The position numbers and the translations under genes are program-made. This document shows, one piece after another, positions 28,588 through 64,000 of a DNA stretch of 64,000 bases; position 1 is the first letter of the stretch, and each line of letters begins with the position of its first letter. The stretch is from contig NZ_AOIN01000067.1 in NCBI RefSeq assembly GCF_000337135.1, positions 67,443 through 131,442 on the forward strand. The letters run 5' to 3'. Under the pieces are notes generated by a model that was not told the origin of the DNA, did no database searches, and saw only the letters and a program-made list of their open reading frames with translations. This stretch comes from Natrialba chahannaoensis JCM 10990 (lineage in GTDB: Archaea > Halobacteriota > Halobacteria > Halobacteriales > Natrialbaceae).

Positions 28588-29730
28588 ATGGCTGCAGGCC
28601 CAGAACGGGATGCAGAGGTTGACGAGACGAAGTCCGCGATCGACGCTTCAACTACCACATCGGCTGGATCTACCTCGAGACGGCGGTTACTCTCCGCAAC
28701 GGCGGTTGGTTCTGTCACTGCCCTCGCCGGCTGTGCCGAACTGCTCGGCAGTGGGGACCCGCTGCGCGTGAGTATCTGGAGCGGCAATTACGCAGATCGC
28801 TTCGAGGAAGGTGTTGTCGACCGATACGAGGCTGACCACGACACCGAAATCGAGATTCACCGTGGCTGGGACGAAATCCTGGCCGACATCCAGTCGGCAC
28901 CTGAGGATAACCCGCCGTTCGACGTCACCGTTGCCGAGGGGAACTTCTACTACTACGGCCGTCAGCAGGACCTCTTCGAGCCGATTCGCGAGGAGAATAT
29001 CCCGAACGCCGACGGTATCATCGACTTCTACAGCGAAATGCGCGACACGGAGTACGGGCTCCCCGTCGACGGCGCGCCGTGTACCATCATCCACCGGGAG
29101 GACGCAGACGTTGACCCCGAACAGTGGGGCGACCTCTCCTCGTCGGCCGTCGCCGACAGCACCGGTATCGGCGTCGATACCGGCTTCTGGTGGTACCCGC
29201 TCTACGCCGCCGCGATCGGCATGGACGAGGAAGACGGTGCTGGCGAGATGCACGACGAGGCCTACCACGACGACGTGCTCGATCAGGTCGAGGACTGGAA
29301 CGTCCAGAGCTGGGCGAGCTCCGGCGAGGACATCTGGCGAGCCTTTGAAAACGGCGTCATCGATGTCGCCCAGTGGTACTACGACCAGACCGCCTACGAC
29401 ATCGACGACTACGACGGGCTGACCCACACGATGCCCGACCAGACAACTGGCTGGCTCAACAACTGGTGTGTCGTCCGCGGCACCGACAAACGCGCCGAGG
29501 CAGAGGAGTTCATCAACTTCCTGCTCGACGCCGACGTGCAGTCCGAGTGGTCCGAACACGCGCCGATGGTGTTCAGCAACGAGGACATCGAGTACGCCGA
29601 GGGACTCGAGGACGACCTTCCGACGACGACCGAGGAGGCACAGGACATCGCGTTCCCGGACTGGGAGTTCCTCGCGAGCCACGACGATCACCTGTCAGAC
29701 CAGTTCTCGACGATCCAACAGCAGTCCTGA
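28588..29730 (+). CDS. potD: Spermidine/putrescine-type ABC substrate-binding lipoprotein
   Basis: A 380-residue extracellular binding protein. A Tat-type signal (T-S-R-R-R-L-L-S-A-T) is followed by a lipobox L-A-G-C with the lipidated Cys near residue 51. The mature protein has the PotD-like opening L-R-V-S-I-W-S-G-N-Y and ends with P-D-W-E-F-L-A. Acidic and aromatic residues line the expected pocket. It captures polyamines or a related cation for the transporter encoded by the next three genes. The substrate is a family-level guess. Confidence 0.85.
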   Translation: MAAGPERDAEVDETKSAIDASTTTSAGSTSRRRLLSATAVGSVTALAGCAELLGSGDPLRVSIWSGNYADRFEEGVVDRYEADHDTEIEIHRGWDEILADIQSAPEDNPPFDVTVAEGNFYYYGRQQDLFEPIREENIPNADGIIDFYSEMRDTEYGLPVDGAPCTIIHREDADVDPEQWGDLSSSAVADSTGIGVDTGFWWYPLYAAAIGMDEEDGAGEMHDEAYHDDVLDQVEDWNVQSWASSGEDIWRAFENGVIDVAQWYYDQTAYDIDDYDGLTHTMPDQTTGWLNNWCVVRGTDKRAEAEEFINFLLDADVQSEWSEHAPMVFSNEDIEYAEGLEDDLPTTTEEAQDIAFPDWEFLASHDDHLSDQFSTIQQQS

Positions 29731-61439: not shown

Positions 61440-63929
61440 TTAGTGGTCGATACCGCTGAGGTCCTCGTCGCGATAGCGCCGAAGCTGGAGTTCGACCTGG
61501 TCGTTGAGACGTTCGAGTCCGTCGTCGACACCGAATTCGGGGATCACGTTGTCGGAGGCTTCAGCGATGAGGGTGCGGACGGTGTTGAACGGTCCCATTC
61601 GCGCGCCGTTCGTCGCAGGGGTGTTCTCGGATGCGAGGAGTTGTTCGATCGCGGTTTCATAGCCGGGTTTTTCGCGGAACCAGCCCTCTCGGTCGAGCCG
61701 CTCGACGGCCTCTTCGTGGATGGGGAAGTAGCCGGTTTCCTTGTGCCAGCGGGCCTGTTGTTTGGGCTGGGCGAGCCAGGCGAGAAATTCGGCGGCGGCG
61801 CGTCGCTCCTCGCGCGATGCAGCAGCAGTGATCCACAGCGAGCCGCCGCCGACGACGACACCGTGACGTTCTGCGGGAACTGGGAAGTAACCGGTACCGA
61901 CATCGAAGTCGGCGTCGCCGACAACGGACGTCAGCGACGATGTGGAGTCAATGAGCATGGCGGCGTCCCCGGCGTGAAACCGCTCTCTGGCTTTGCCGCG
62001 AGCTTCGATGCCAGGATCGTGGTAGAGGCCGTCACGATCGAGTCCGGTGAGCCAGTCGTAGACGGTCCGTCCAGCGTCGCCGTCGAGATAGGCTTCGGTC
62101 GGCGTGCCGTCGCGGCCGTTGTTTTCGTCGACCAGCGGCTGGTTCTGTTCGGCGAACCACTGTTCGATGAACCACGAGTAGTTTGCGAAGGTAATTCCGG
62201 CGTCGACGACGCCAGCGTCGACCAGTTGTTCGGCGGCGTCTCGAACCTCGTCGAAGGTTCGCGGCGGCGACGTCCGTTGGAGTCCGGCACCGTCGAACGC
62301 CGCCTCGTTGAAGTAAAGCACCGGCGTCGAGGCGTTGAACGGCATCGAGTAAAGCTGGCCGTCGGTCCGGTAGTACTCAAGGACAGGGTCGAGCAATTCG
62401 TCGAGCGAGAGGTCGTGGCCCGAAAGGACTCGTTCAACCGGGACAAAGGCGTCGCTGTCGAGGGCGCGTTTCGTCCCAATCTCGTACAGCTGTGCAATCG
62501 CCGGCGGGGAACCACGTTCGACTGCCGAGAGCGTCGCATCGAACGTCCCGCGGTAGCTTCCTTTCGATCGGGATTCGATCCGGATGCCGTCGGTCTGCGC
62601 TTCGAATTCGGCGATGAGCTCGTCGAGTAGTACTCCCTTGTCGCCACCCATCGCGTGCCAGAACTCGAGGACAGTGGCGTCGGTTTCGACGCGGACAGTG
62701 CTGGTGTCGTACGTGTCAAGGAGAGACTCGATCGCGGTCGCCCGTTCCTTGAGGGCGGAGACACTGGCGGCGACCTCGGTTAGGGAGGTGGTCTGTTCCC
62801 GCGCGGCGACGGTTACGTCGTCAGTTTTCGTTGACGTATCGTCCGAAATGTCTGCGATGTCATCGGCCATCGAGACGATCGCTTCGACGGAGGACGCCTG
62901 CTCGTCGGTCGCCTCGGAGATTTCCTCGACCGCGACGGTCGTCTCCTCGATGTCGTCGACGAGGTCGGTGAACGCTTCGAGCGCCGACTCGGCGGTTTCG
63001 AGACCGGTGGTGACGCGCTCGTGCATTTCCTCGATCTCGGCGACGGTGTCATTGGTTTCGTCCCTGATCTCGTCGATCGAGGTTTCGATCTCTGCCGTCG
63101 CGTCGTGGGCCTCCTCGGCGAGGCTCTTGATCTCGTTCGCGACGACCGCGAACCCGTTACCTTCCTCGCCGGCCTTGGCCGCCTGGATCGACGCGTTGAG
63201 TGCGAGCAGGTTCGTCTCGTCGGCGATATCGCGGATCAGTTCGACGATCCCCTCGACCTCGGCGATCCGCTCATCCAGCCGCTCGACGCTCTCGCGGGCC
63301 CGCCCGGTCCGATTGTTGATGTCGTCGAGTTCCTCGAGCGCACCCGTCGCCGCGTTGCGACCATCCTGGCCGCGTTCGGCGACGTTCTGTGCGGTTGCGG
63401 CTGCTTCCGCGGCCGAACTCGCGATCTCTTCGGTTGTGGCCGAGAGCGTCTGGAGTTCGCCCGTCGCGGTGTCGATTCGCGCGTGTTGTTCGGTTGCACT
63501 ATCGGAAATGTGCGATACCGCCGTACTCACCGTTTTACTCGTGTCCTTCACGTCGTCGACACGTGAACCGACGTGATCGCTGGCTCCGGTGACCTGCTCG
63601 CCGAACTCATCGACGTCGTCGATGGTCTCCGAAAAAGTGCGGACGAGTCGATTGAATTCCGCGGCGATCGCGGCGATGCGGTCGTCTGCTGCGTTTTCGT
63701 CTAGCCGTACCGTCAGGTCGCCGTCGGCACACCGATTCATGGCCGTTTGGACGCGCTCGAGTTCGGCATCGGCTAGATCGTCCGATTCGATACCACCGTC
63801 ACCGGACCCGCCGTTGGTGAGCCGGTTGGCCCCGTCGTTCGACTCACGGGAGTCGGATTCGCTTGCTCGGTCAGCGGTCCCCGTCTCCGTTTGCGACTGG
63901 TCGCCCGAGGAACGCGTGCCCTTCACCAT
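61440..63929 (-). CDS. Chemotaxis transducer fused to an extracellular-type solute-binding protein
   Basis: An 829-residue fusion. Residues 1-50 are polar and low-complexity, with no signal peptide or membrane helix. Residues about 52-110 form a HAMP-like unit ([13 protein letters not shown]). Residues about 110-405 are a coiled-coil MCP signalling domain whose tip is [13 protein letters not shown], then G-F-A-V-V-A-N-E-I. Residues about 417-829 are a UgpB/MalE-like binding protein ([10 protein letters not shown] then [11 protein letters not shown], and [11 protein letters not shown]). The binding domain would thus sit in the cytosol and could sense an internal sugar or phospho-sugar and signal to CheA. 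The ATG at 63929 is preferred to a Met five codons earlier. Confidence 0.9.
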
Positions 63930-64000
63930 GACTACCACCCACACAACTAACCGTTAAATATGTTTTAGCCGAACGTGAGCGTGTCATAGAAACCGTCACG

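Follow-up and report, generated by a model that had tools for sequence, protein, structure and literature searches.

Results

One uninterrupted frame occupies positions 61440..63944 of the reverse strand of the window, that is, of the whole 64,000-nucleotide stretch of DNA from Natrialba chahannaoensis JCM 10990 that was analysed. Counted from the first GTG (63944), it encodes 834 aa. The ATG at 63929 is the likely start codon, and the gene would then extend from this ATG to the stop (61440..63929, -) and encode 829 aa; residue numbers of the fusion protein (P0001) are counted here from the GTG, not from the ATG. About 28 nt upstream of the ATG, the sequence TATTTAA at 63954..63960 (-) reads as a possible archaeal TATA box.

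The protein is composed of an acidic N-terminus, a HAMP-like stretch, a complete MCP signalling hairpin, a 14-residue linker and a complete UgpB-type solute-binding protein (SBP) domain, in this order. The HAMP-like stretch (residues 62-102; 63639..63761, -) matches the Pfam HAMP model weakly, below its cut-off, and the structural model has a helix at 54-73. The helical hairpin, delimited by DSSP on the AlphaFold model, spans residues 88-409 (62718..63683, -) and contains the Pfam MCPsignal domain at residues 182-366 (E 1.7e-37; 129 bits against a cut-off of 34.6). Its tip motif TNLLALNA is at residues 244-251 (63192..63215, -), the region that contacts CheA and CheW in known MCPs; T244, N245 and L247-A251 were invariant in the 20 orthologues aligned. 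The short linker (residues 410-423; 62676..62717, -), placed from the alignment and the model, is of low confidence, with pLDDT < 50 at 415-421. Residues 424-830 (61455..62675, -) were assigned as a UgpB-type (CUT1) SBP domain from Pfam, NCBIfam, PDB search, AlphaFold and Foldseek. Pfam SBP_bac_8 covers residues 442-753 (E 1.2e-39), the best NCBIfam model is UgpB at residues 420-801 (E 6.4e-73; 245.8 bits, below the equivalog cut-off of 411), and the closest solved structures in a sequence search of the PDB are those of UgpB (E about 1e-61). A first-pass annotation of this DNA had placed a complete UgpB-like domain C-terminal to a transducer, behind the signalling hairpin. Both the domain and its position were borne out by the domain order, Pfam, NCBIfam and the predicted structure; in the domain search that it had proposed, MCPsignal and SBP_bac_8 were clear, and HAMP was weak and under its cut-off. 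The MCP hairpin is antiparallel, with both ends at one place, away from the CheA/CheW tip. A C-terminal sensor therefore sits where an N-terminal one would, which makes a sensor behind the hairpin less odd.

The hydropathy of the fusion protein peaks at 0.93 over any 19-residue stretch, so the window protein has no membrane helix or signal peptide. Unlike in a transmembrane MCP, no two membrane segments flanking a sensor were found in the 19-residue hydropathy scan of the window protein, and no Tat or Sec export signal was found in it by hydropathy and motif scans. These results agree with the earlier description of a transducer without membrane segment or export signal. In contrast, a Tat/lipobox signal precedes the SBP domain in all 20 separate haloarchaeal relatives examined. 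The word soluble, used in the same description, holds for the window protein but not for the whole family, since an additional hydrophobic segment is found at the N-terminus of several Halohasta, Halonotius and Natronocalculus orthologues. This segment was absent from the window protein and from the examined orthologues of Haloarculaceae, Halorubrum and Natrialbaceae. In L022, L023, L024, L025 and L034, which form one Haloferacaceae group, it is followed by a short second one. The hairpin of the orthologues with a hydrophobic N-terminus must be cytosolic because it must reach CheA. A hidden export signal had been named as a reason to doubt the proposal; besides its absence from the window protein, a motif scan of 56 fusions gave two matches, neither convincing. 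The match in the Halonotius fusion L025 falls inside the lineage-specific membrane segment, and the match in L160 sits in a frame read upstream of the gene. We infer that the window fusion protein is located in the cytosol.

The isolated SBP domain was modelled with AlphaFold at pLDDT 93.1 and pTM 0.89. In Foldseek, Escherichia coli UgpB 6x84 ranked first (TM 0.93, 1.7 A), and the ligand-bound UgpB forms 9lff and 4aq4 gave TM 0.88 and 0.83, so the modelled domain appears to be nearer the 6x84 form. MalE-type sugar-binding structures matched worse than UgpB, which makes a sugar ligand such as maltose less likely. The full-length model (pTM 0.53) has the helix at 88-409, a poorly predicted linker with poorly predicted mutual placement of the domains, and an SBP domain that is again UgpB-like (Foldseek TM to target 0.92). 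The SBP domain is 31-33% identical to UgpB. In Phaeobacter UgpB, the phosphate of glycerol-1-phosphate (G1P) or sn-glycerol-3-phosphate (G3P) contacts Tyr64, Ser143, Ser266 and Tyr342, the hydroxyls contact Glu88, Gly303 and Arg393, and Trp188 and Trp191 form a clamp, mutations of which are reported to impair binding (Wang et al. 2025, PMC12718374); we confirmed the residue numbering on the PDB chain. In the alignment, the phosphate contacts correspond to Tyr464 (62553..62555), Ser539 (62328..62330), Ser667 (61944..61946) and Tyr739 (61728..61730), the hydroxyl contacts to Glu488 (62481..62483; the glycerol hydroxyl), Gly700 (61845..61847) and Arg790 (61575..61577), and one half of the clamp to Trp591 (62172..62174), all on the reverse strand. 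The other half, Trp188, is replaced by Asn588 (62181..62183, -). Thus, eight of the nine contact and clamp residues are identical in the window protein. The same eight are invariant in 56 of 56 fusions, for which the hypergeometric P is 8.6e-6 (34 non-redundant fusions, with 19% of SBP columns invariant), and the ninth is Asn in 44 and Thr in 12 of the 56. Conservation is higher in the binding domain than in the signalling domain; relative to the L033 orthologue, for example, the identities are 59% and 43%, respectively. With eight contacts and the UgpB fold kept, the loss of the ligand pocket that the first-pass annotation had named as a possible objection was not observed. Because Asn is also found at the clamp position in exported haloarchaeal relatives, the Trp188-to-Asn change is a lineage trait, and its explanation as an adaptation to the cytosol is ruled out.

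A scan of species genomes found the full architecture in 27 named haloarchaeal loci at 46-72% identity. In the Halobacteria survey, a match spanning the junction of both domains was found in 54 of 292 genomes, about one in five; two of these matches start inside the hairpin, and the genome G038, in which the match is in two pieces of one frame, is additional to the count. The architecture thus recurs in other haloarchaea, where a survey had been suggested. The fusion genomes belong mainly to Haloarculaceae and Haloferacaceae. In Natrialbaceae, the family of the window, only the window genome and G151 (a Halopiger djelfimassiliensis contig) have the fusion, and it was absent from the four other genomes of the genus of the window among the 292. 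No full-length fusion was found on plasmid records at 80% cover, and the matches listed there are separate ABC-type relatives. In the tree, the SBP domains of the fusions form one side of a branch with SH-aLRT 99, beside haloarchaeal exported UgpB-like proteins, and those of Natrialbaceae group with Halorubrum. This topology suggests that the fusion arose once and was perhaps transferred into Natrialbaceae.

In 24 of the 54 genomes, representing seven genus codes and several gene orders, glpK lies within a few kb of the fusion gene, mostly with gpdCBA. If genera are taken as independent, the probability that at least 7 of 13 would be linked to glpK by chance is about 1e-12. GlpK itself is found in all 54 fusion genomes and in 251 of 292 genomes overall (P about 1e-4, a value that ignores ancestry). 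In Haloarcula, Halomicroarcula and Halomicrobium, the fusion gene lies between the divergent gpdCBA and glpK, and glpK is followed by a membrane protein. Where measured in Haloarcula and relatives, gpdA is 256-350 nt upstream of the fusion gene and divergent from it, and the fusion gene is followed after 129-209 nt by glpK on its own strand. In Halohasta, Halonotius and Natronocalculus, gpdCBA is followed on the opposite strand by glpK, a membrane protein, an AAA protein, the fusion and HPr, and PtsI and the dihydroxyacetone (DHA) kinase subunit DhaL are also present in some of these clusters. Haloferax mucosum and the genome G267 have two further arrangements of the fusion near glycerol genes. 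Neighbours were called as GlpA, GlpB, GlpC, GlpK, PtsI and DhaL above the curated NCBIfam cut-offs; for HPr, the cut-off of the subfamily model was exceeded. For the membrane protein adjoining glpK, a role as a new glycerol transporter has been predicted (PMC3102087). The fusion is not beside glycerol genes in Natrialbaceae (the window included), Halorubrum, most Haloferax and one Haloarculaceae genus (g51). No ugpA, ugpE or ugpC was found among the neighbours of the window gene (L019) or the annotated neighbours of the orthologue loci. The exported sister group includes Tat lipoproteins, and those checked adjoin genes for an ABC permease, an ATPase and a glycerophosphodiesterase, which fits glycerol-phosphate binding for the clade; the exported sister on pNRC200 of Halobacterium salinarum adjoins two permeases and an ATPase.

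The Orc1/Cdc6-like AAA protein recurs consistently in the haloarchaeal glycerol cluster. Genes matching the representative at L033:15138-16313 (+), of 391 aa, adjoin glpK in many loci, and another lies at L144:18079-19437. A different orc1/cdc6 gene is near glycerol dehydrogenase and UgpB on pNRC200. The protein of the glycerol cluster is perhaps a regulator, not a replication protein.

In the window genome, the glpK-gpdABC operon is on another contig and does not adjoin the fusion gene. On that contig (C80), about 2.7 kb from the operon, L144:4525-7722 (+) encodes a 1065-aa MCP with HAMP, which may be the glycerol-linked receptor of this genome. The ABC sugar permease that was looked for just past the window end was not there; the next genes encode a cobalamin adenosyltransferase, an alpha/beta hydrolase and an NAD-kinase/inositol-phosphatase. 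The last of these, L019:10565-12358 (+), combines an NAD kinase domain with an inositol monophosphatase domain in a single frame. No further UgpB-like protein was found in the window genome at E 1e-5. The window has a second SBP_bac_8 protein at 28588-29730 (+), of 380 aa, which the UgpB-like domain of the fusion does not match at E 1e-5.

Other arrangements of UgpB-like domains were also noted. In two Natrialbaceae loci (L175 and L049), a separate UgpB-like Tat lipoprotein adjoins an MCP gene, which is the conventional two-protein arrangement. In the spirochaete Marispirochaeta (L053:9398-13484), the gene for an MCP lies close to that for an exported UgpB-like protein, without fusion. In three Chloroflexota loci (L065, L067 and L095), a single frame of 879-971 aa encodes a tandem pair of UgpB-like domains.

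Discussion

In this study, we found a chemoreceptor with a C-terminal UgpB-type domain whose orthologues are often encoded next to glycerol genes. The first-pass annotation had proposed a one-protein sensor for an internal sugar or phospho-sugar. In silico, the evidence best supports a single protein that senses a phosphorylated solute inside the cell; the solute is refined to a glycerol phosphate, and a sugar is less likely. Judged by the pocket residues and by the glpK and gpdABC genes linked to the orthologues, the ligand is most likely G3P. We estimate a probability of about 0.6 that the fusion is a cytosolic chemoreceptor that senses the G3P of the cell itself and feeds CheA, giving chemotaxis on internal glycerol flux. 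We also lean slightly towards a wider view, in which a widespread haloarchaeal receptor family moved a periplasmic-type G3P-binding protein into the cytosol as the C-terminal sensor of a chemoreceptor, lets cells navigate on an internal intermediate of glycerol and not on glycerol as such, and has the gene built into the glycerol catabolic cluster.

In Haloferax volcanii, glycerol is converted to G3P by glycerol kinase and then to dihydroxyacetone phosphate (DHAP) by G3P dehydrogenase (PMC12366361). It is plausible that the fusion works as follows: Glycerol would enter the cell, glycerol kinase would make G3P, and G3P dehydrogenase would oxidise it to DHAP. The cytosolic UgpB domain, placed between both enzymes, would read G3P. 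Closure of the C-terminal clamshell on G3P at the hairpin base would twist, stabilise or shift the helical bundle, and this change would alter CheA activity at the tip and hence archaellum switching. The cell would then follow how well glycerol is eaten, not the amount outside. Proteins of this type normally catch glycerol phosphate extracellularly; a cytosolic glycerol-phosphate catcher on a receptor probably steers cells by their own glycerol metabolism. We infer the affinity of the fusion receptor, the coupling of its domains and the sign of its response. The affinity may be low because one clamp Trp is lost in every fusion and mutants of the clamp Trp residues of UgpB are reportedly impaired in binding; weak binding could be adequate at cytosolic concentrations, or the pocket may accept a different glycerol phosphate.

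The latter idea, that the main ligand of the same cytosolic receptor is G1P (the archaeal lipid precursor), a glycerophosphodiester or DHAP, is unlikely in our estimate, and G1P or a phosphodiester is still a live alternative because the affinity of UgpB for G1P is close to that for G3P, with Kd of 2.36 uM and 0.80 uM, respectively, in Phaeobacter (PMC12718374). The double-Trp clamp is said to have arisen as larger phosphodiester ligands gave way to G1P and G3P (PMC12718374), and the fusions have Asn or Thr in place of Trp188; the glycerophosphodiesterase genes beside the exported sisters and the HPr, PtsI and DhaL genes of the dihydroxyacetone pathway beside some fusions point the same way. 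However, the linked orthologues adjoin glpK and gpdABC, whose products make and use G3P, and DHAP would have no hydroxyl at C2, the group that the pocket contacts in G3P. The loss of half of the clamp could also mean that the SBP domain senses nothing and serves as a structural or docking module, for example in receptor packing or in binding a glycerol enzyme. This is improbable given that the model keeps the UgpB fold in a form like 6x84 and that eight pocket residues are invariant (P as above) in 56 proteins diverging to about 45% identity.

The output and the setting of the receptor can be read differently as well. It is quite improbable that the receptor drives a pathway other than chemotaxis, such as array organisation or a second CheA system. 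In favour of this reading, two CheA-type kinases, in frames of 761 and 1489 aa, are encoded in the window genome, and two Halohasta fusion genomes have no CheA match at E 1e-5, a tight threshold at which several genomes pass with 8e-6, but the hairpin tip is canonical and 52 of the 54 fusion genomes have a CheA match at that threshold. Non-classical export, which would put the protein or its SBP domain outside the cell, is very improbable. The hydrophobic N-terminus of some Haloferacaceae orthologues could be taken in its favour; the window protein and the Haloarculaceae, Halorubrum and Natrialbaceae orthologues examined lack such a segment, the lipobox present in 20 of 20 exported relatives is missing, and the MCP hairpin has to be in the cytosol for contact with CheA and CheW. 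An assembly or frameshift artefact that joined two genes, the remaining doubt raised in the first-pass annotation, has a negligible probability and is ruled out by the survey, since the same architecture is in one frame in 54 of 292 genomes and in the 27 named loci and the SBP domains share one branch.

Metabolism-dependent (energy) taxis is an old idea. To our knowledge, only a few receptors respond to a single, defined metabolite inside the cell. For the proposed G3P chemoreceptor, sequence, pocket, structure and gene neighbourhood all point to one metabolite. The pathway is simple (glycerol, GlpK, G3P and GpdABC), so that a single knockout can tell internal from external sensing. Haloarchaea use glycerol that leaks from Dunaliella as a carbon source (PMC12366361), which would give the receptor a central place in their ecology. 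The fusion also offers a way to learn how a clamshell at the C-terminal hairpin base controls CheA, and its SBP domain might serve at high salt as a genetically encoded G3P sensor.

The fusion shares its fold and eight of nine ligand residues with UgpB of the UgpBAEC ABC importer (CUT1; PDB 4aq4, 6x84 and 9lff). It differs from UgpB in that it has no export signal, lies behind an MCP hairpin, has no adjoining permease or ATPase genes and carries Asn or Thr for one clamp Trp. Among chemoreceptors, BasB and CosB are separate extracytoplasmic lipoprotein SBPs, and BasT and CosT are membrane transducers. BasT/BasB and CosT/CosB are cited as halobacterial binding-protein-dependent transducers (Kokoeva 2002, cited in PMC9602780). 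In these pairs and in the fusion, haloarchaeal MCP signalling goes through an SBP, whereas the fusion is a single polypeptide without a membrane segment. TlpD of Helicobacter pylori is a solved soluble chemoreceptor with a C-terminal zinc-binding CZB sensor (PMC12871147). TlpD and other CZB receptors resemble the fusion as soluble MCPs with the sensor at the C-terminal hairpin base; however, CZB is a small zinc-binding domain, whereas the sensor of the fusion is a 400-residue clamshell, and the Pfam scan found no CZB match in the protein. According to a general remark, SBP-type sensor domains occur in kinases and transcription regulators (PMC9602780), which, like the fusion, use an SBP Pfam domain for sensing, not transport. 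A UgpB/CUT1 domain on a soluble chemoreceptor had no description in the literature searched (on the architecture, haloarchaeal glycerol chemotaxis and cytosolic SBP sensors, mostly outside subscription journals). Each element by itself, the soluble chemoreceptor, the C-terminal sensor and the SBP-type sensor domain, is already known; what is new relative to the papers searched is a CUT1 SBP as a cytosolic C-terminal sensor in a catabolic cluster.
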